In this document: positions 4,774 through 18,732 of the stretch, in pieces
Layout of the letters: the number at the start of each line of letters is the position of its first letter
Position numbering within the stretch: the stretch's first letter is position 1
NCBI GenBank assembly: GCA_016934605.1
Contig: JAFGSO010000019.1
Span: 1-33,990, forward strand
Reading direction: 5' to 3'
Length of the DNA stretch: 33,990 nucleotides
Source of the DNA: Calditrichota bacterium
GTDB lineage: Bacteria; Calditrichota; Calditrichia; RBG-13-44-9
Program-made: the position numbers and the translations under genes
Notes under the pieces: generated by a model
The model's input: only the letters and a program-made list of their open reading frames with translations
What the model was told of the DNA's origin: nothing
Databases searched by the model: none

Positions 4774-5250
4774 CTAATCCAGTATGGCTGCCAGTATTAT
4801 GCCCAGGATTAGCCAGAGCGGTATGGAAAACAGAAGAGCCCATACCAGTCCCTGCACAGTTTTCAGCCGATCCTTCAGCGATCTTTTTTCGAAAGCCCGT
4901 TCAATACGTAACTTTACATCTTCCATGTGAAAAGGCTTGGTTATATAATCGTACGCGCCCTTTTTAATAGCATCTACGGCTGTTTCTATTGAAGGATAGC
5001 CGGTAATCATCAGAAAAATAACATCCTTGTCGATATCTCTGATTCGTTTCAGGAGTTCCAGACCATCGATATTGGGCATAAGCAGGTCGGAGATAATGAG
5101 ATCAAAGTCTCCTTTGGTGAATTTATTCAGAGCATCCTGACCATCCTCGGCAGTAGTCACTTCATAATTCATGCTTTCAAGGTAATTTGATAATACTTCC
5201 CGAATATTCTCCTCATCATCAATAACCATTACACGACCAAGCTTTTTCAT
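4774..5250 (-). CDS. Receiver-domain response regulator with C-terminal transmembrane segment
   Basis: REC: MVIDDEEN, LIISDLLMPNIDGLELL, YDYITKPF. The tail is VQGLVWALLFSIPLWLILGIILAAILD, a hydrophobic helix at the extreme C-terminus. Confidence 0.9.
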   Translation of the reverse strand: MKKLGRVMVIDDEENIREVLSNYLESMNYEVTTAEDGQDALNKFTKGDFDLIISDLLMPNIDGLELLKRIRDIDKDVIFLMITGYPSIETAVDAIKKGAYDYITKPFHMEDVKLRIERAFEKRSLKDRLKTVQGLVWALLFSIPLWLILGIILAAILD

Positions 5251-7548: not shown

Positions 7549-8244
7549 ATGGAAAATACAGATATGAATTCTGAATTCTTAAAGCAAATACCCTTATTTT
7601 CTGAACTGAATGACCGCGATCTGGAAAAAATTATTCAGGTTGCTACCAAACAACGCTACCATAAAGACAATATTATTCTGATTGAAGAGGAAGTGGGTTC
7701 CACCATGTTCATCATCCTCTCCGGCCGTGTTAAAATTTCCAGGATCAGCGATGATGGACGTGAAGTGATCCTATCCATTCTCAGCGACGGAGATTTTTTC
7801 GGGGAAATGTCCCTGCTGGATGGATATACCAGATCGGCTAATGTAACTGCCATTGAAGAAGCAGAACTGCTGGTAATCCGCCGGGAGGAATTCCTTCAGA
7901 TGCTCCACGATTATCCTCAGATTGCCGTGAATCTCCTGAAAGAACTCGCTCAGCGTATACGGAAAAGTGATGAGCATATAAAATCATTATCTCTCCAGGA
8001 CGCCACTGGCCGTGTCGCCTCCACCTTGCTCCGGATTGCGGAAGATTCCGGTGTTTTCCGAAAAGGGCAGGTTGAAATTGCAGAACTGCCATTGCAGCAG
8101 GATCTGGCTAATATGGCCGGAACAAGCCGGGAAACCATATCCCGTGTTATTAAAACACTTAGTGATGAAGGATATCTTAAAAAACAAAGTGGTAAAATCA
8201 TCATTCTGGATTATGAAAAATTTCAGCTTAGATTTTCAAAATAG
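7549..8244 (+). CDS. Crp/Fnr-family transcriptional regulator
   Basis: Cyclic-nucleotide-binding fold (ILIEEEVGSTMFIILSGRVKISR..., GDFFGEMSLLDGYTRSANVTA) and HTH QQDLANMAGTSRETISRVIKTLSDEGYL. No N-terminal Cys cluster. Start could be ATG 7564. Confidence 0.93.
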   Translation: MENTDMNSEFLKQIPLFSELNDRDLEKIIQVATKQRYHKDNIILIEEEVGSTMFIILSGRVKISRISDDGREVILSILSDGDFFGEMSLLDGYTRSANVTAIEEAELLVIRREEFLQMLHDYPQIAVNLLKELAQRIRKSDEHIKSLSLQDATGRVASTLLRIAEDSGVFRKGQVEIAELPLQQDLANMAGTSRETISRVIKTLSDEGYLKKQSGKIIILDYEKFQLRFSK

Positions 8245-8265: not shown

Positions 8266-10305
8266 ATGAAAATATTTATTGCCGGAGAAGACAGGGAGTC
8301 TTCTGCCTACATTCGAGATGCTTTGATTCAGACCGGTCTCGATATACAGCTTATTAATTTTGATATCCTCGGTAACAATAACCTTGATAAATCAGATGCC
8401 GCCATTCTGATTCTCAACTTTTCAGCCGAGAAAGACCCGGACTCACAACATTTGAAACAGATTCTGTCATTCGTCAGAGATTTTCCCGCACCTGTTATTT
8501 CATTTGTTCAGCCGGCAAAAAGTGAACTTCAGCAACAGTTGGAAGACGAGGGATTTCATCCTGTACTGGAATTACCTTATTCCCATGCCGAGATCCGGTT
8601 GCTGATAACCGGATACCTGAAGGAATCCCCGGATTTTTTAAATCCTGAAGATAAAAATCAGAAAGTTTCAGGTGCTGACGACCCACTTGAAATGTTTTTT
8701 AATCTGATGAATTCCATGCAGAAAAATAACTGGAATTTCTCTCGACTGGTTCGCGAATTGATGGGATTCACCCATCACTGCCTCAATATTTCCCACATTC
8801 TTTTTCTGGAAGATATGGGGAATTCAGAGGGACTGGTAAAAAACAGTGTTTCTTTGACGTGGATGAAAAGTGATTTCAAAATTAATCTCAAAAATTTAAG
8901 CTATAATCAAAATGTCATCGATGATCTGATCATACTTGAGAATCTTGAAAAAAATAATTCGGCCAGAACCTATCTGAAATCGCTGCTGGGGAGAGAATCG
9001 AAATCACTGATTGTTTGTCCGGTATTCCTTCAGAATCAACGAAAATTCACTTATCTGTTTCTCAATGAACATAAAAAAACATTCACCGCTGCTCAGAAGA
9101 GACTGATATACTTTATGCGAAATTTAAGTGAATTCGCTCTGGAAAAAGAGAAATTTTCTGTACGTCAACCGCCTGACTCTTCCGCTTCGTCGGCTATTTT
9201 TTTTCAGGGAATTATTGATCATCTGAATTTTGGCATTGTTATCATAGACCGGAAGCTCGGCATAAAATTTATAAACCGGGAGGCTTCACATCTTCTTCAG
9301 TTAAAGATAGCCGGAAATAATTACCAGAATCTCCGGGAGATTCTCGGTGAACAGAATATTCAGGCTGTTGTTGATTCCATGAAAACAATCGACGGTACTT
9401 TTCAGAGGCCGGAGATTGAGCTGGAAACTGCGACCGGCCAGAAACTGCTTATCGGCTTTACCTTAACCGAGTACCTGGATCCCCTGAACGAGGAGAAAGT
9501 TTACATTCTCTCGCTGAAAGATATTACCTATACCAAAGAACTCCAGGAAGAAATGACCCGCATGGATAGGCTGGCGTCACTGGGAGTGATGGCCAGTGGT
9601 ATCGCTCATGAAATTAGAAATCCCCTGGCAGGAATAAAAGCTATTGCCCAGACGTTTGAAGAAGAGCTTGCAAAAGATGACCCAAAGAATGAATATGTTA
9701 CACGAATCATTAAACAGGTGAATCGCCTGGACGATCTTCTGAAATCACTTTTTTCCTATGCGAAACCTCAGAAGCCCAACCGCCAGTTTTCTTCGGTCCA
9801 GGAGATTATCTATGATGTGCTTTCACTTCTGAAGCAGAAACTGCAGAGCCAGAATATTAAACTGATCCAATCCATCCAGAAGCCGTTGAAAGATGTTTTT
9901 GTGGATAATTCACAGATACAGCAGGTGCTCTTTAACCTCGTTCTGAATAGTATCGAGGCCATTGAAGGACCTGGTGAAATCAGTATTACCGTGAATGAAA
10001 TCAGGGATGATGCAGCAACCTTCCGCCGCAAACCTTTCTATAATAAAATCACTGATAAGCCGTATATTCTGATCCGGATCTCCGATTCGGGTTATGGAAT
10101 TTCTCCCGAGAATCTTCAGCAGATTTTTAATCCATTTTTCACAACAAAAAATTTTGGTACCGGCCTGGGTCTTTCAATCGTTTATCAAATAGTCCAGGAA
10201 AATAATGGTATTATTTATTTTGAAAGCGAAAAGAATGTCGGCACGGATTGTTATCTTTTCCTGCCTGCATTTGAACCGGTCTCCAAAGAATCCATGAAAA
10301 GTTAA
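8266..10305 (+). CDS. PAS sensor histidine kinase with N-terminal degenerate receiver-like domain
   Basis: PAS (IIDHLNFGIVIIDRKLGIKFINREASHLL), HisKA (LGVMASGIAHEIRNPLAGIKA), HATPase (NLVLNSIEAIEG, ISDSGYGI, GTGLGLSIVYQIV). The N-terminal ~120 aa look receiver-like. Confidence 0.92.
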   Translation: MKIFIAGEDRESSAYIRDALIQTGLDIQLINFDILGNNNLDKSDAAILILNFSAEKDPDSQHLKQILSFVRDFPAPVISFVQPAKSELQQQLEDEGFHPVLELPYSHAEIRLLITGYLKESPDFLNPEDKNQKVSGADDPLEMFFNLMNSMQKNNWNFSRLVRELMGFTHHCLNISHILFLEDMGNSEGLVKNSVSLTWMKSDFKINLKNLSYNQNVIDDLIILENLEKNNSARTYLKSLLGRESKSLIVCPVFLQNQRKFTYLFLNEHKKTFTAAQKRLIYFMRNLSEFALEKEKFSVRQPPDSSASSAIFFQGIIDHLNFGIVIIDRKLGIKFINREASHLLQLKIAGNNYQNLREILGEQNIQAVVDSMKTIDGTFQRPEIELETATGQKLLIGFTLTEYLDPLNEEKVYILSLKDITYTKELQEEMTRMDRLASLGVMASGIAHEIRNPLAGIKAIAQTFEEELAKDDPKNEYVTRIIKQVNRLDDLLKSLFSYAKPQKPNRQFSSVQEIIYDVLSLLKQKLQSQNIKLIQSIQKPLKDVFVDNSQIQQVLFNLVLNSIEAIEGPGEISITVNEIRDDAATFRRKPFYNKITDKPYILIRISDSGYGISPENLQQIFNPFFTTKNFGTGLGLSIVYQIVQENNGIIYFESEKNVGTDCYLFLPAFEPVSKESMKS

Positions 10306-10309
10306 GCTA

Positions 10310-11119
10310 ATGAATCTGGTCTCATCACTCCCATTTTTATCTTTACCTGTTCTGTATGCCATAGAAAACAATCTGGTGGAACACCATATCAATATCAAAT
10401 ATCTCCATGAAAACGATATTCTATCCTCCCTGACAGAGGGCTCTGCAGATGCTGCTTTTATCTCTCCATTAACTTTTGCCCGGAATACCAGTGGACTTCA
10501 GATCGTCAGGGATTTTACGGTGAACAGTCCGAACTACGGGCGAAATGCACTACTGTTTTTCAGTGGTAATCTTACCAGCATCGATACCATTTATTTTGAA
10601 TCGGGTAAAGATAATAACGAATTCGATCTGTTCCTGGCAGAGGTTGTGTTAAAAGAATATTTTGAAATTATACCCCAATGGGAAAAAATCGAAAATGTTA
10701 TTCCGGATAGCAAAGCACTCGCATCACACAAGGTGATATTTATTCCCTCACCAATATCTTTCGATATGTATCCGGACTATGAAAATTATATTGATCTCTC
10801 CGAAGAGTGGTCCCTCCAGACGGAACTTCCCCTGGTACATGGACTTTTGTGCGTAACCAATTCCTTTAAAGATCGCGAATCTCTTGCAAAGCTAAGGCTC
10901 TCCAGGGAACTTGGTCTCCGAAATCTGATGAAAATCGCCAAAAGGTATGCCGAGAACCACCCGCAAAACTGGGATGTTTATTTCGATTTATGGAATGAAA
11001 AATATCAATACTATCCTGTTCCGGAAACCTGGGATTCTCTGGAACAGCTGTTTTCCTACATGTTTTATTATGCCAGGGCAGAATATTACCCGGAGTTGAA
11101 ATTTTACCCAGAAGATTAA
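10310..11119 (+). CDS. MqnA-like (menaquinone biosynthesis / PBP2-fold) protein
   Basis: Pattern similarity to MqnA/MqnD: LTEGSADAAFISPLTFARN, YGRNALLFFSGNLTSIDTIYFE, IDLSEEWSLQTELPLVHGLLCV. Divergent sequence, so family-level only. Confidence 0.55.
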   Translation: MNLVSSLPFLSLPVLYAIENNLVEHHINIKYLHENDILSSLTEGSADAAFISPLTFARNTSGLQIVRDFTVNSPNYGRNALLFFSGNLTSIDTIYFESGKDNNEFDLFLAEVVLKEYFEIIPQWEKIENVIPDSKALASHKVIFIPSPISFDMYPDYENYIDLSEEWSLQTELPLVHGLLCVTNSFKDRESLAKLRLSRELGLRNLMKIAKRYAENHPQNWDVYFDLWNEKYQYYPVPETWDSLEQLFSYMFYYARAEYYPELKFYPED

Positions 11120-12622: not shown

Positions 12623-12646
12623 AAGCCCCGTCTTCGGGGCTTTTTT
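12623..12646 (+). terminator. Rho-independent terminator
   Basis: AAGCCCCG-TCTT-CGGGGCTT followed by a T run; perfect GC-rich stem 42 nt after the PorV-like stop. Confidence 0.93.
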
Positions 12647-12765
12647 ATGAACTACCAATTTCTTAAATAAATTCTTCTTAATTATCTTTTCTGGTTTGTC
12701 GAAAATATTTTAAGAAACCATAACGGAAAGAAGCGAAATTTCAGGAAAGATTTGAAGGGCAATCC

Positions 12766-13071
12766 ATGGAAATAACCGTTAACAGGAACGGAAAATCTAT
12801 CCGGATCTCAATTATAGGTGCAGTTGATAATGAAAATGCAGAAGAATTAAAATATGAACTTCAGAATCTTACAGGGGAGGATTTCCAGGAAGCAGTGTTC
12901 GATCTAAGTTATGTACCATTTATAACCAGCTCAGGAATCGGAAAATTTCTAATTTTTTATAAAACGCTTCTCTCACAGGATCGGAAGATGCGGATTGAGG
13001 GGATTAACGATACTCTGCTCGATCTTTTTAAATCCATAAAGCTGGATCAGCTCTTTACCATAGAAAAATAA
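12766..13071 (+). CDS. STAS-domain anti-sigma-factor antagonist
   Basis: 101 aa; AVFDLSYVPFITSSGIGKFLIFYKTLLSQDRKMRIEGINDTLLDLFKSIKLDQLF, a SpoIIAA/RsbV pattern with phosphorylatable Ser after IT. Confidence 0.92.
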   Translation: MEITVNRNGKSIRISIIGAVDNENAEELKYELQNLTGEDFQEAVFDLSYVPFITSSGIGKFLIFYKTLLSQDRKMRIEGINDTLLDLFKSIKLDQLFTIEK

Positions 13072-13084
13072 ATAGAAGTTTATA

Positions 13085-14008
13085 ATGGAATTCACATCTT
13101 GCCGGCACATTTTAGTGGTTGATGATGAGCATACCATAGTGGATTTACTCGAGGAATTTTTCAAGGGTTTAGGGTGCAATGTTTCTACTGCCGCCAGTGC
13201 AGAGGAGGCGCTTGAAAAATTGAGGAATGGTAAATCTTATCAGCTGGTCCTTACGGATATTAACATGCCCGGGAAATCGGGCCTGGATCTATTAAAAATA
13301 ATCCGGGAAACCCGGGAAGATCTTCCGGTTGTATTACTGACCGGTCTGAAAACCCTGGACAATGCCATTAATGCGGTTAAAAGCGGAGCCACCGATTATA
13401 TAACGAAACCATTTGAACTCAGCACACTCCAACGGGTTGTTGAAAGAATACTTCGTAAGCAAGACAGGATCGTCCGCAAGGAACAGATTTATGAAAACCT
13501 GAATTATCTCAAACTTAATTTTGAATATGAAACAGGTAAACTGGATCCAGGTGCTGTTGCCCGAAAACTGGTGAAATATCTCGAGAAAATTCGCTTTGCA
13601 GAATCCGATGAACTCGGGAAATATGAGCTGGCTTTTACCGAAACCCTGGTAAATGCTATCGAACACGGAAATCTGGAGCTTGCCTCACGGACTAAGAACA
13701 GTGATTCATTTCAGATTGCCGAGTATGAGGAATTAAAAGAAAAACGCTTAAATGAGCAGGTTTTTGCTGAAAGGAAAATAATTATCACATTTGAGTGTAC
13801 CAGAGAAGTATTCAACTTTTCCGTCAAGGATGAAGGGAACGGTTTCAACTGGCGAAAGTATCTGAATTCCTCTCACCAGATTCAAAATGAATCCATGAAA
13901 TCATATGGACGTGGTTTTCACCTGATACGCCATGTAATCGATGAAGTTCATTTTAATGATACAGGTAATATTATTACCCTAATCAAAAACAGTGCCCAAA
14001 ATACCTAG
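13085..14008 (+). CDS. Response regulator receiver fused to RsbW/SpoIIAB-type HATPase
   Basis: REC: LVVDDEHTIVDLL, LVLTDINMPGKSGLDLL, TDYITKPF. HATPase: FTETLVNAIEHGN, FSVKDEGNGFNWRKY, GRGFHLIRHVIDEVHF. Confidence 0.92.
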   Translation: MEFTSCRHILVVDDEHTIVDLLEEFFKGLGCNVSTAASAEEALEKLRNGKSYQLVLTDINMPGKSGLDLLKIIRETREDLPVVLLTGLKTLDNAINAVKSGATDYITKPFELSTLQRVVERILRKQDRIVRKEQIYENLNYLKLNFEYETGKLDPGAVARKLVKYLEKIRFAESDELGKYELAFTETLVNAIEHGNLELASRTKNSDSFQIAEYEELKEKRLNEQVFAERKIIITFECTREVFNFSVKDEGNGFNWRKYLNSSHQIQNESMKSYGRGFHLIRHVIDEVHFNDTGNIITLIKNSAQNT

Positions 14009-14026
14009 ACACAGAGAATTGGCAGA

Positions 14027-15781
14027 ATGAATCGTGCTGAGCTGACAGGCATTTTAAATAATTCAAAGGTTAAGAATCTTAAACATCCGGTATTCTTTGT
14101 GACTCATGCTGGTCGTGTTATCAGTTACAATAAATCTGCTGCTGAATTAATTCGTCTGTATTCCGGTGCATTAATTCATTCAATTGAAGATTCATTTGAT
14201 CAGGATAAAAAAAATAATCAGAAAATTTTTAAAAATAATAATTCGATTTTTATCAATACGATCTTCGGTTTTGAAGCAAACTGTACTTGTCAGATGATCT
14301 GGTTTCCCGACTTTGAGGGGGAAGATACCCGGCAATATGCCGGTGTTCTGATCTGGGAGTCCGGAAACCATGCGGCGATTGAGGGGCGCTATATACATTA
14401 CTTAAAATCTATAAACAAACTTTCGGGTAACAGTAACAAATATAAAAATATTCATTCCTTGTCCCGGTTTTTCGCCAATGAGCTTTATAAAGCTGAATAC
14501 AATTTTTATCATGTTGGATTGTTTTTGAGGGATCCTCTTTTTTCTGGTTCTGAAGTTATTCTGATGGCGGCAGCAGGGGAGTCCCGCCAGTTTCTAAAAA
14601 AAGATTTGAGTCACAGATACCATCAATCTATATCTACAGGTGTAATAGGAAAAGTTATTACTGAAAGACGGTCAATTATTGTTGATGATACGGACAAAAT
14701 AGATTTTTATCATAGTACTTCACTGTTTCGTGGAAAATCTGAGATAGCCGTGCCTATCTTTCTGCACAATGAAGTAATGGGCGTTATCAACATTGAATCA
14801 AAAGAGCTTGTCCGGTTCGATTCTTCCGATCAGGCTTTTCTGGAAGCAGTGGCAGATATTTATGCGGCAAATATATATCGGATAGAAACTCATAAAGAAA
14901 TTCAGAAGAAAAATTCGGAACTGGAAAATTATCTCGATCAAATCCGCAAGTACAATGAAAAACTGGAAAGACAGTCAAAACGGCTTAGAAATGCTCTTGA
15001 AAAAAGAATCGAAATTCAAAAAATAGTTGAAAAACAAAACGAAAAAATTCAGAATAAACTGGAGATGGGAGCAGAATTGCAGAAATCACTTCTCCCCAGA
15101 TCTTTTCCGGATTCTCCGGAACTGGTTTTTCATGCCTGTTATTATCCGAATTCACAGCTGGGTGGAGATCTTTACGATGTATGTACACTGGATGATAATC
15201 ATATTGGTATTATCATCGCAGATGTGTCCGGTTATGGCGTTTCTGCTGCGATGATTGCTGCCATGTTTAAAGCCTATTTCAATAACTTCAGCAAATCATT
15301 GTTGAGTACGGCGGGAATAATGTCCCGATTAAACAGAGCATTTTATTCCGTACTCCAGACTGGCGATTTTATTTCTGCATTTTATATGATTTTAGATACC
15401 AGAAATTTTAAAGCGATATATACAAATGCAGGACATACTTTTCCGTTATTATACCGGGCCAGTACGGCTCAGATAGAGGAGCTTGATACTTCAGGATTTT
15501 TTGTTGGACTGTTTGACAGAAAAGAATACCAGGAACAGGAGACCGTTATTTTTCCGGGTGACCGGTTGCTTTTCTACACAGATGGAGTCGTTGAGAGTCG
15601 TAATCATAAAAATCAGTTCGGAATAGGAAGGTTAAGAACTGTTTACCTGAATGAAATTCTAAATGGAAGCGAAGGCAAAGAAATTCTGAATAAGATAATT
15701 GATGAGATTCAGCGCTTTACAGGTAGATCCAGCTTTGAAGATGATGTAACGCTGCTAAACATTGAGCGAATGGTTCTCTAA
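14027..15781 (+). CDS. PAS-like/GAF-PP2C (SpoIIE/RsbU-type) serine phosphatase
   Basis: PAS-like HPVFFVTHAGRVISYNKSAAELI; GAF domain; coiled coil; PP2C SpoIIE: LQKSLLPRSFP, LGGDLYDV, IADVSGYGVSAAMIAAM, FYTDGVVESRN, FEDDVTLL. Confidence 0.92.
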   Translation: MNRAELTGILNNSKVKNLKHPVFFVTHAGRVISYNKSAAELIRLYSGALIHSIEDSFDQDKKNNQKIFKNNNSIFINTIFGFEANCTCQMIWFPDFEGEDTRQYAGVLIWESGNHAAIEGRYIHYLKSINKLSGNSNKYKNIHSLSRFFANELYKAEYNFYHVGLFLRDPLFSGSEVILMAAAGESRQFLKKDLSHRYHQSISTGVIGKVITERRSIIVDDTDKIDFYHSTSLFRGKSEIAVPIFLHNEVMGVINIESKELVRFDSSDQAFLEAVADIYAANIYRIETHKEIQKKNSELENYLDQIRKYNEKLERQSKRLRNALEKRIEIQKIVEKQNEKIQNKLEMGAELQKSLLPRSFPDSPELVFHACYYPNSQLGGDLYDVCTLDDNHIGIIIADVSGYGVSAAMIAAMFKAYFNNFSKSLLSTAGIMSRLNRAFYSVLQTGDFISAFYMILDTRNFKAIYTNAGHTFPLLYRASTAQIEELDTSGFFVGLFDRKEYQEQETVIFPGDRLLFYTDGVVESRNHKNQFGIGRLRTVYLNEILNGSEGKEILNKIIDEIQRFTGRSSFEDDVTLLNIERMVL

Positions 15782-15871
15782 ATGATCCTTTCGGCTTTTT
15801 CCAGAAACAAATTTTTGTTATATTAAATTATGCATTGGCTCAGGTACAATTAAGAACAAACTATTTTAAAA

Positions 15872-16942
15872 ATGATGGAAAATAAGGTCACATCCATGAC
15901 CCAGAAAACCTGCCTTGTTGTTGATGATGATTACGGAGCACGTCTCCTGGTTCAGAAAATCCTGGAAAAAGAAGGCTATCATATTACACTTGCCTCCGGG
16001 GGGCATGAGGCACTTGAGTATTTGAAGAAAGATTCATGTGATTTGATGATTTCGGACCTTAAGATGGAAGGAATGGATGGAATTGAACTGCTGAATAAAG
16101 TTAAGCAATCTGAACCGAATCTGTCAGTGATTATCCTGACCGGGCATGCCTCAATTCAGACTGCCATTGAGGCCCTTAGACTGGGAGCTGTCGATTATCT
16201 GACGAAACCGGTTAATGCAGACGAATTGCGAATCCGGGTAAAAAAAGCGATTGAAAGAATAAACCTGGAAAATCGGCTCACCGAAATAGAACGACAGCTG
16301 ACTTATAACGCAACTGTGACGACAGCTAACCACGAGATTAATCAACCACTGACTGTAATTCTTTCCGGCGTTGATATGATCAAAATGGAATTTGATAAAA
16401 AACATATCGGTGACAAGAAAATCCTGAATTATCTTAACCTGATCGAAAAATCCAGTCTTAGAATTGCCAATATTCTCAGGAGTTTTCGTGAAATTTCAAC
16501 ACCTGTTATTCAGAAAATTCCTCATGGTATGAGAATGATTGAACTCAGAAAAGGCGAAAAGTACAAACATGCCTCAGAAAAATATATCCTGGTAATTGAG
16601 GATGAAGAACAGATACGGATTCTGATAAGGGACATGCTGGAAAGTGCCGGATACCACGTGATTCTTGCCTCAAATGCCCATGAAGGAATTGAAATTTACG
16701 AAAGTCAAAAAAATGTCATCGATCTTGTGCTTCTGGATTACTATCTTCCTGACAGTTCCGGATTGCAGGTTTTCAGAAAAATAAGAGAAGTTGATAAAAA
16801 CAGTCATATTCTTCTGACTTCCGGATTCGATATCGACGATGATATTCAGAAAGCTCTGGATGAAGGAGCCATCGGATTTCTGAGTAAACCATTCAATCGT
16901 GAACAAATTGTAAACTTTATTCAGCAACTCACCATTCAGTAA
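15872..16942 (+). CDS. REC-DHp-REC phosphorelay protein (no HATPase domain)
   Basis: REC1: VVDDDYGARLL, LMISDLKMEGMDGIELL, VDYLTKPV. Central HisKA-like: TVTTANHEINQPLTVILSGVDMIKMEF (His codon at 16331). REC2: VIEDEEQIRIL, LVLLDYYLPDSSGLQVF, IGFLSKPF. Confidence 0.88.
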   Translation: MMENKVTSMTQKTCLVVDDDYGARLLVQKILEKEGYHITLASGGHEALEYLKKDSCDLMISDLKMEGMDGIELLNKVKQSEPNLSVIILTGHASIQTAIEALRLGAVDYLTKPVNADELRIRVKKAIERINLENRLTEIERQLTYNATVTTANHEINQPLTVILSGVDMIKMEFDKKHIGDKKILNYLNLIEKSSLRIANILRSFREISTPVIQKIPHGMRMIELRKGEKYKHASEKYILVIEDEEQIRILIRDMLESAGYHVILASNAHEGIEIYESQKNVIDLVLLDYYLPDSSGLQVFRKIREVDKNSHILLTSGFDIDDDIQKALDEGAIGFLSKPFNREQIVNFIQQLTIQ

Positions 16943-16970: not shown

Positions 16971-17600
16971 TTGTCTGCACTGATTGAAATAGATATCAAG
17001 CTGTTTTTTTTTCTGAACCGCAGTATAGCCAATCCGGTTTTTGATATAATTATGCCGTTTGTGACAGACCTGGACAACTGGAAAATTCCCATTTTGATTG
17101 TCTGGATGTTTCTGATGATTCGGGGCGGAAAAAAAGGCCGGATAGTCGGAATTCTCCTGATATTTGTGCTGATCTCCACAGATCAGCTGTCCTCATCCCT
17201 GATAAAGCCTCTGGTAGGACGGATACGTCCCTGCCACACTCTGAATGATGTTCGTCTGCTGGTAGGCTGTGGAGGCAAACTGGCATTTCCCTCTTCTCAC
17301 GCCACCAATATTTCGGGGGTTGCTGTCCTGTTTTCCTTTTTTTACCGCAGGGGCACTGTCTGGTTTACAATAACTGCTCTGATCGTCGGTTTTTCCCGGA
17401 TATATGTTGGTGTTCATTATCCTGCCGACGTAGCCGGTGGGTTTTTGTTCGGTAGTGCCTCTGGTGGGCTTATTGTCTATTTTTATTTAAAAATATCAGA
17501 ATTTTATTCTTCTCTGGATTATCGTACGCTTCAAAGCAGTGTTTCTCCCAATAATAGGGAAGAGCTGAAGAATCCTTCGGGGAATTATAAATCCCGGTAA
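16971..17600 (+). CDS. PAP2-family phosphatase
   Basis: KPLVGRIRPC, PSSHATNISG and SRIYVGVHYPADVAGG, the three PAP2 signature motifs. Start at TTG. Confidence 0.93.
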   Translation: MSALIEIDIKLFFFLNRSIANPVFDIIMPFVTDLDNWKIPILIVWMFLMIRGGKKGRIVGILLIFVLISTDQLSSSLIKPLVGRIRPCHTLNDVRLLVGCGGKLAFPSSHATNISGVAVLFSFFYRRGTVWFTITALIVGFSRIYVGVHYPADVAGGFLFGSASGGLIVYFYLKISEFYSSLDYRTLQSSVSPNNREELKNPSGNYKSR

Positions 17601-17607
17601 TTTTGTT

Positions 17608-18261
17608 ATGAGCATTGTATCGAAATTAAAGAATAATATCAAATCAAATCTAATACCCGGTATTATTGTAGTTGTTCCTCTGGTGATATCTTTGATTGTA
17701 CTCCGCTGGCTGATCAATTTTTTTGACAGCCTGATTCAACCGGCGCTTAAAAACTATATCCACATCTATATCCCGGGACTGGGAATACTTGTCAGTCTGA
17801 TTTTTATTTATCTGGTAGGCTTATCAACCAAAAACTATTTTGGAAATAAGTTGGTTCAGGTAGGGGAGTGGATAGTGGTCCGGATTCCGGTTGCCAAAAC
17901 CGTTTATCTTGCAGTCAAACAGATAATAACAACAATCACCTCACGAGAAAAGAAAAAAACTCAGAAGGTAGTCATGATCGAATATCCCGGAAAAGATTTA
18001 TATTCGCTCGGACTTTATAACGGGCTGGTGGAAGACCCGGTCAATAATCGCGTTATGGGTAGTATTCTGGTCATTACTTCCATCAATCCGACATCTGGAT
18101 TTACTGTACTTGTACCTGTAAAGAATATTCGTTTGACGGATCTCACAGTGGAACAGATGATGCGGTTCGTTGTTTCAGGGGGACTCGTGATACCGGAAAA
18201 GTTGAAAACACTTCCTTTCGAGGGTCTGCCGGCTGATAATTCGGAATTGGATTCAATTTAA
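17608..18261 (+). CDS. DUF502 family membrane protein
   Basis: NLIPGIIVVVPLVISLIVLRWLINFFDSL, GLGILVSLIFIYLVGLSTKNYFGNKL, VAKTVYLAVKQIITTI pattern. Confidence 0.87.
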   Translation: MSIVSKLKNNIKSNLIPGIIVVVPLVISLIVLRWLINFFDSLIQPALKNYIHIYIPGLGILVSLIFIYLVGLSTKNYFGNKLVQVGEWIVVRIPVAKTVYLAVKQIITTITSREKKKTQKVVMIEYPGKDLYSLGLYNGLVEDPVNNRVMGSILVITSINPTSGFTVLVPVKNIRLTDLTVEQMMRFVVSGGLVIPEKLKTLPFEGLPADNSELDSI

Positions 18262-18732
18262 TCCTTCATCACTCTCCAGGCTCTCCCTCAGAAGCGAGAT
18301 ATTCTGTTTGTCATTCCGGATCATTCTCCGGATGAACTCCTCAAATGTGACATGTCCCTCCAGTTCATGAAATCCGGTTCGATCCCAGGAAAAGACCGGT
18401 ATATTGTATAGAAAACGTATAATTTCTTTCTTTTGATACAGAAATTTTTCAATCAGCTGTTCCAGAGAGCGTTGATTCTGGATTGCCTGTTCCTTTAACC
18501 GTTCTACCTGGATAGCCGGTAGATAGGGATTTTCCAATTCTATAATCTTTTTTAACCGCATTTCAAGGATATCCTCTTCAACCACGGTAACTGTCCGGAT
18601 GATTTCACGAATTTTCAGTCGGCTATTTTCCGGATTTGGATTATGATCGGGAAGAGAAGAGAGAATAGATTGAAAATCGTTTAAATTTTCCTCTATATTC
18701 TTAATCAGATTTGATCGGTAGCCATCATTCAT
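18253..18732 (-). CDS. Putative DinB-superfamily-like protein
   Basis: C-terminal VFSWDRTGFHELEGHVTFEEFIRRMIRNDKQNISLLRESL resembles the DinB pattern (HPelGevTleellrhmirHDrhHl) with final histidines substituted. 3' end overlaps DUF502 by 9 nt, convergent. Confidence 0.55.
   Translation of the reverse strand: MNDGYRSNLIKNIEENLNDFQSILSSLPDHNPNPENSRLKIREIIRTVTVVEEDILEMRLKKIIELENPYLPAIQVERLKEQAIQNQRSLEQLIEKFLYQKKEIIRFLYNIPVFSWDRTGFHELEGHVTFEEFIRRMIRNDKQNISLLRESLESDEGLN

Follow-up and report, generated by a model that had tools for sequence, protein, structure and literature searches.

A receiver-bearing RsbW-like kinase is held beside a STAS protein and a kinase-less relay protein in one order of uncultured Calditrichota

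Can a partner switch acting on a STAS protein be coupled to a phosphorelay protein that has no kinase domain of its own? This question is raised by four consecutive signalling genes in a 33,990-nucleotide stretch of DNA from a Calditrichota bacterium (assembly GCA_016934605.1, contig JAFGSO010000019.1), which we refer to in its full length as the window. An earlier note on this DNA, made from the sequence alone, had described a one-strand block comprising a STAS antagonist, a receiver-controlled RsbW-like kinase, a PP2C phosphatase and a relay protein. We found all four open reading frames (ORFs) where that note had placed them, consecutive and on the + strand, and Pfam profiles run on the translated ORFs gave the following domain assignments:

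12766-13071 (+): STAS protein of the anti-sigma-antagonist type, 101 aa (PF01740, E 1.6e-12)
13085-14008 (+): REC-HATPase_c_2 protein (hereafter REC-HATPase), an LvrC/TciR-type RsbW-like kinase, 307 aa (PF00072, 3.7e-29; PF13581, 2.9e-15)
14027-15781 (+): GAF-PP2C, a SpoIIE/RsbU-type phosphatase, 584 aa (PF07228, 1.4e-42; GAF_2, 6.6e-12)
15872-16942 (+): REC-DHp-REC (REC-HisKA-REC) relay protein, 356 aa (two PF00072 stretches; PF00512, 7.8e-7)

The window corresponds to contig C232 in a metagenome assembly of 3.27 Mb and 84% completeness (labelled G000; relatives are G001, G002 and so on, and loci carry the letter L). It was compared with its phylum in a set of 40 genomes, made up of 16 genomes of the window's order (window included) and 24 other genomes of the phylum; 15 of the 16 were assessable, G015 being left out because the contig in question begins with its REC-DHp-REC gene. 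The HATPase profile scored more than 250 bits in 14 of the 16 order genomes and in none of the 24 others, and the next best match anywhere reached 52 bits. Full-length REC-HATPase orthologues, 43-56% identical, occur in 13 other genomes, all of the same order, and in every one of these, as in the window (14/14), the genes for STAS, REC-HATPase and REC-DHp-REC follow one another on the same strand. The upstream neighbours vary: the window, G001 and G002 have a PorV-family gene on this side, G004 has another ORF, and the other families have unrelated genes. The linkage is therefore not a mere lack of rearrangement on that side, and because the three-gene order has been kept despite the divergence of REC-HATPase and these changes upstream, the arrangement is not due to chance. 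These results reveal a three-gene signalling block that has long been held together in one order of uncultured bacteria.

The order of all four genes, whose conservation the earlier note had proposed to check in related genomes, fared differently from this three-gene core, as it was found in the window, G001 and G003 only; GAF-PP2C is absent at the locus in the remaining 11 of 14 genomes. Every genome carries at least four other SpoIIE phosphatases. GAF-PP2C is thus a family-level addition to the locus, and a single gain in the family followed by loss in G004 may account for its distribution, being compatible with the tree. The PP2C metal-site motifs GGD, ADVSG (DVSG), TDG and DD are present, as judged from an alignment with its orthologues in G001 and G003 and with two further SpoIIE proteins from the window genome. 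Its GAF domain is supported by a profile, whereas the PAS domain that had been placed at its N terminus found no profile support in Pfam.

Residue invariance was assessed in 14 sequences each of the STAS protein and REC-HATPase, and in 13 of REC-DHp-REC. The SSG motif of the STAS protein aligns with Ser58-Ser59-Gly60 of SpoIIAA, which puts a phosphorylatable serine, Ser55, at the Ser58 position, as in partner-switch proteins; Ser55 (codon 12928-12930) is thus the predicted phosphosite, and T54-S55-S56-G57 is invariant in 14/14 sequences. The Asp that precedes the SpoIIAA phosphosite is replaced by an invariant Thr in the window's order. With a mean column identity of 82%, against 64-66% for the other proteins compared, STAS is the most constrained of them, as would be expected if the protein has several binding partners. 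In REC-HATPase, the receiver Asp58 (codon 13256-13258), T86 and K108, the N-box residues Glu186 and Asn190, the D249-E-G-x-G (DxGxG) motif and G275-R-G are invariant in 14/14 sequences. The protein therefore has the N-box Glu/Asn and the G1 and G2 boxes of a GHKL serine kinase, together with the N-terminal receiver Asp/Thr/Lys and C-terminal RsbW-like domain of LvrC and TciR. Its ATPase domain matches HATPase_c_2 (RsbW-type), with no match to HATPase_c in Pfam. The receiver-bearing, RsbW-type kinase paired with STAS that the earlier note had described, with a PP2C to counter it in the window, is thus borne out at the level of domains and residues, its activities being predicted from sequence.

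The relay protein likewise agrees with its first description as kinase-less: it has a DHp segment and no HATPase match in Pfam, that is, no catalytic (CA) domain. Its key residues are Asp62, His154 (codon 16331-16333) and Asp289, and D62, the NHEINQPLTVI box that includes H154, and D289 are invariant in 13/13 sequences. It shares a receiver and a histidine-bearing DHp with LvrB-like kinases, but no CA domain follows the DHp. An AlphaFold2 (AF2) model shows a receiver, a two-helix hairpin (116-177, 182-209) and then the second receiver; a fold search with the whole protein matched nothing but receiver proteins, PleD among them, and was uninformative beyond the receivers. Apart from the lack of a CA domain in the relay protein, none of the four proteins looks degenerate, and their catalytic or phospho-acceptor residues are intact.

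Spacing and neighbours divide the block in two. The following features flank it:

12623-12648 (+): intrinsic terminator (12623-12642 plus T-run), 8 bp stem with 6 G-C pairs and a TCTT loop, ending the upstream PorV-family gene
16971-17600 (+): PAP2-superfamily phosphatase (Pfam; neighbourhood comparison)
17608-18261 (+): DUF502 membrane protein (Pfam), 3' of PAP2 in several loci

The block consists of two units, STAS plus REC-HATPase (unit 1) and REC-DHp-REC plus PAP2 (unit 2). The gaps between STAS and REC-HATPase are 8-29 nt (13 nt in the window) and those between REC-DHp-REC and PAP2 are mostly below 50 nt (28 nt in the window), whereas REC-HATPase and REC-DHp-REC are separated by 105-350 nt where PP2C does not intervene. 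PAP2 lies directly 3' of REC-DHp-REC in 12 of 14 assessable loci, and the two genes are likely to form one transcription unit; further downstream, the opposite-strand gene at 18253-18732 is kept in 13/13 assessable loci. The upstream terminator had been called strong, and its hairpin (12623-12642) indeed has the highest G-C pair count among the sites scanned between 10200 and 19000. Terminators had also seemed likely by eye in the gaps between REC-HATPase and REC-DHp-REC; they were discarded, as 1 of 11 gaps contained one against 1.6 expected from shuffles.

Units 1 and 2 stand side by side in 14 of the 15 assessable order genomes and in 0 of the 24 genomes from the rest of the phylum. The remaining order genome, G002, is nested in the window's genus (98/94 support in the REC-DHp-REC tree), and its syntenic locus is intact: REC-DHp-REC, PAP2 and DUF502 come immediately after the PorV-family gene. 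This locus has no STAS, REC-HATPase or PP2C gene, and REC-HATPase was found nowhere else in the assembly. This indicates a joint loss of the first three genes in which the relay protein, which keeps its His and NHEINQPLTVI box, was retained; the relay protein is therefore not dependent on the switch. Given this loss and the absence of PP2C from most loci, the view of the block as a four-gene unit is not supported. Relatives of the relay protein without a CA domain also occur in other orders of the class, where the other window genes are not around them. G017 encodes a REC-DHp protein of 238 aa, and G018 and G019 encode proteins of 363-364 aa with diverged receivers (pseudo-REC-DHp-pseudo-REC); each carries an NHEINQPLT or HHEINQPLT box. 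A search of 19 arbitrary distant genomes with the DHp profile, which had no positive control, gave no match.

L145:6364-7080, L143:7022-8116 and L144:5326-6417: orphan CA-less REC-DHp or pseudo-REC-DHp-pseudo-REC proteins with the conserved HEINQPLT histidine box

The closest solved relatives of REC-HATPase and of the DHp segment belong to one pathway, the LvrA-LvrB-LvrC system of Leptospira (PDB 9qih, 8vc9). LvrC (PDB 9qih) combines a receiver with a Bergerat/RsbW-like domain, as REC-HATPase does, and matches it over the full length (profile E 4.8e-34); the HATPase segment alone matches LvrC at 2.5e-8, better than SpoIIAB and RsbW. AF2 modelling of REC-HATPase (two sequences) gave a mean predicted local distance difference test (pLDDT) score of 57, which is low confidence, and the top PDB match of the model, LvrC, was used only because the sequence profile agrees. 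The DHp segment has its nearest solved relative in LvrB (E 5.7e-4), which, like the relay protein, begins with a receiver. Phosphorylation of its receiver activates LvrB, which then rapidly phosphorylates LvrC, and LvrC has been proposed to be an anti-sigma factor whose target is unknown (PMC13269768). Unlike LvrB (REC-DHp-CA), the relay protein here has a second receiver in addition to lacking the catalytic domain, and the STAS gene lies directly 5' of REC-HATPase, whereas the LvrC paper, which never mentions STAS, reports no such partner (PMC13269768). A protein at a Leptospirales locus (L162:3825-5123) has an LvrC-type HATPase domain between a degenerate receiver-like N terminus and a C-terminal stretch resembling a cyclic-nucleotide-binding domain. 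At another Leptospirales locus (L036), genes for a STAS protein, a histidine kinase and a receiver protein lie within ~3 kb of one another; it was tried as a parallel and dropped, as the HATPase profile did not match the receiver protein there.

The same REC plus RsbW-like architecture, with kinase residues conserved, is found in TciR of Vogesella indigofera (PMC12826045). Its authors noted that no REC-RsbW protein had been functionally characterised before and that their organism has no RsbV homologue (PMC12826045); here, a STAS partner is encoded by the neighbouring gene. Receiver-controlled STAS kinases are also known. In Vibrio fischeri, SypE likewise brings a receiver-controlled RsbW-like kinase and a PP2C to bear on a STAS protein, SypA, with no known sigma target, and HsbR/HsbA of Pseudomonas and CrsR/CrsA of Shewanella have receiver-bearing STAS kinases too (PMC6482189). 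The HsbR receiver takes its input from a phosphorelay (HptB), with RpoS or FlgM as outputs (PMC6482189). In SypE, HsbR and CrsR, however, the receiver, PP2C and kinase are fused in one polypeptide, which is not the case here: PP2C is separate and optional, and the adjoining relay protein is REC-DHp-REC rather than the Hpt protein of the HsbR/CrsR systems. The RsbV/RsbW/RsbU system of Bacillus has the STAS protein, GHKL serine kinase and PP2C in common with the window, but RsbW is receiver-less and its target is SigB. The window genome contains a separate cluster of receiver-less STAS, RsbW-like and SpoIIE genes (L155, G000:C121, 225-4076), with a second SpoIIE gene upstream, which from its predicted domains appears to be a conventional partner switch without receivers. 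The earlier interpretation, which had set the locus apart from known systems by its receiver-controlled kinase, was thus partly right but overstated the novelty; the locus varies on known receiver-controlled partner switching.

From the domain make-up, the invariant active residues, the order-wide linkage and the natural case in which unit 1 was lost and unit 2 retained, we infer the phosphotransfer steps, the link between the units and the target as follows. We favour, at a probability of roughly 0.55, a joint reading in which unit 1 is a receiver-controlled partner switch and unit 2 is a CA-less relay or phosphate sink linked to the receiver of unit 1. A histidine kinase encoded elsewhere would load REC-DHp-REC, the REC-HATPase receiver or both. 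REC-DHp-REC, which would have shed its catalytic domain or lacked one from the start and would use no ATP itself, would shuttle phosphoryl groups between receivers through His154, most likely exchanging them between its own two receivers and others, including that of REC-HATPase, as a relay or phosphate sink. The RsbW-type domain of REC-HATPase would phosphorylate STAS Ser55 with an activity set by the state of its N-terminal receiver, and PP2C, where present, would remove the phosphate. STAS, released or captured according to its phosphorylation state, would then bind a target encoded elsewhere. The link between the units is supported by analogy with the phosphorylation of LvrC (REC-Bergerat) by LvrB (REC-DHp-CA). 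Several observations weigh against this joint reading. The loose gaps between the units make co-transcription doubtful; the retention of REC-DHp-REC in G002 without REC-HATPase indicates that it has another role, such that coupling of the units may be incidental; and LvrC-type proteins in two distant genomes have no STAS gene within ~5 kb. In the small sample examined, a fixed STAS neighbour sets the window's order apart.

The G002 locus is also what one would expect if the units were unrelated neighbours, with unit 1 a self-contained switch and REC-DHp-REC plus PAP2 an independent regulator that is adjacent only because the whole neighbourhood is conserved. We regard this as possible: G002 keeps REC-DHp-REC-PAP2-DUF502 after losing unit 1, orphan CA-less REC-DHp proteins exist in other orders (G017, G018 and G019), PAP2 and the opposite-strand gene at 18253-18732 are conserved as well, and the gap between the units is large. 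Linkage nevertheless holds in all 14 genomes that have unit 1, though upstream genes have been replaced, and LvrB and LvrC provide a precedent for transfer from a REC-DHp to a REC-Bergerat protein (PMC13269768). The same G002 protein counts against a split histidine kinase, in which the ATPase domain of REC-HATPase would be the missing CA domain and phosphorylate His154 in trans. Adjacent genes are complementary in this respect, an ATPase without a DHp and a DHp without an ATPase, and split histidine kinases have been described (PMC3591291), but the ATPase is RsbW-type with no HATPase_c match and has a STAS partner, the DHp of G002 keeps its His and box without any REC-HATPase, and orphan CA-less REC-DHp proteins occur elsewhere in the class. 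We therefore consider a split kinase very improbable.

A further alternative concerns only the output and is compatible with the joint reading: REC-HATPase would bind a sigma factor encoded elsewhere, with STAS as the antagonist, as in RsbW/RsbV or CrsR/CrsA. The RsbW and SpoIIAB relatives among solved structures, the at least seven sigma-70 region-2 matches in the window genome and the proposal that LvrC is an anti-sigma factor (PMC13269768) argue for such a switch. However, no SigB/F/G-type sigma factor scored above the curated cut-off in any of the 40 genomes, and none was seen beside the module in the loci examined. An output of the SigB/F/G type is thus unlikely, although other sigma factors exist, and we think a classical anti-sigma switch somewhat unlikely overall. 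A bolder and rather doubtful view is that REC-DHp-REC is a phosphate hub through which a His-Asp phosphorelay is coupled to two partners, a serine switch made up of an LvrC-type kinase and STAS, and the envelope lipid phosphatase PAP2; the output would not be a sigma factor, and the switch half could be lost while the hub is kept.

Other genes of the window also encode signalling proteins. A histidine kinase (PAS, HisKA, HATPase_c; 8266-10305, +) with a receiver-like N terminus that lacks the phospho-acceptor is kept near the module in G001, G002, G003 and G004, and is a possible candidate for the input kinase. Directly 3' of it lies a gene for a VitK2_biosynth (MqnA/MqnD-like) or periplasmic-binding-like protein (10310-11119, +), conserved beside the histidine kinase in the family at 30-50% identity; its product may serve as a partner in sensing and not as an enzyme of menaquinone synthesis. 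Three family members share a CRP/FNR-family regulator (7549-8244, +) at 86-89% identity, a level far higher than that of the genes next to it. The 158-aa receiver encoded at 4774-5250 (-) ends in a C-terminal hydrophobic tail, a predicted tail anchor WALLFSIPLWLILGIILA. It is 158 aa long in all six class members read (L149-L154) and 92-93% identical in two same-genus genomes, in which most neighbouring genes are 40-70% identical. It is a strongly constrained stand-alone receiver, probably anchored in the membrane.

For REC-RsbW response regulators such as TciR and LvrC, papers from 2025 and 2026 propose anti-sigma activity as the output, although neither a substrate nor a sigma factor is known. 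In the lineage described here, the REC-RsbW protein always adjoins a STAS protein with an intact phosphosite. Receiver-controlled STAS phosphorylation, and with it the output of REC-RsbW proteins, is thereby directly testable with three small soluble proteins, and nature offers variants of the locus: some carry PP2C, others do not, and one has lost the switch.

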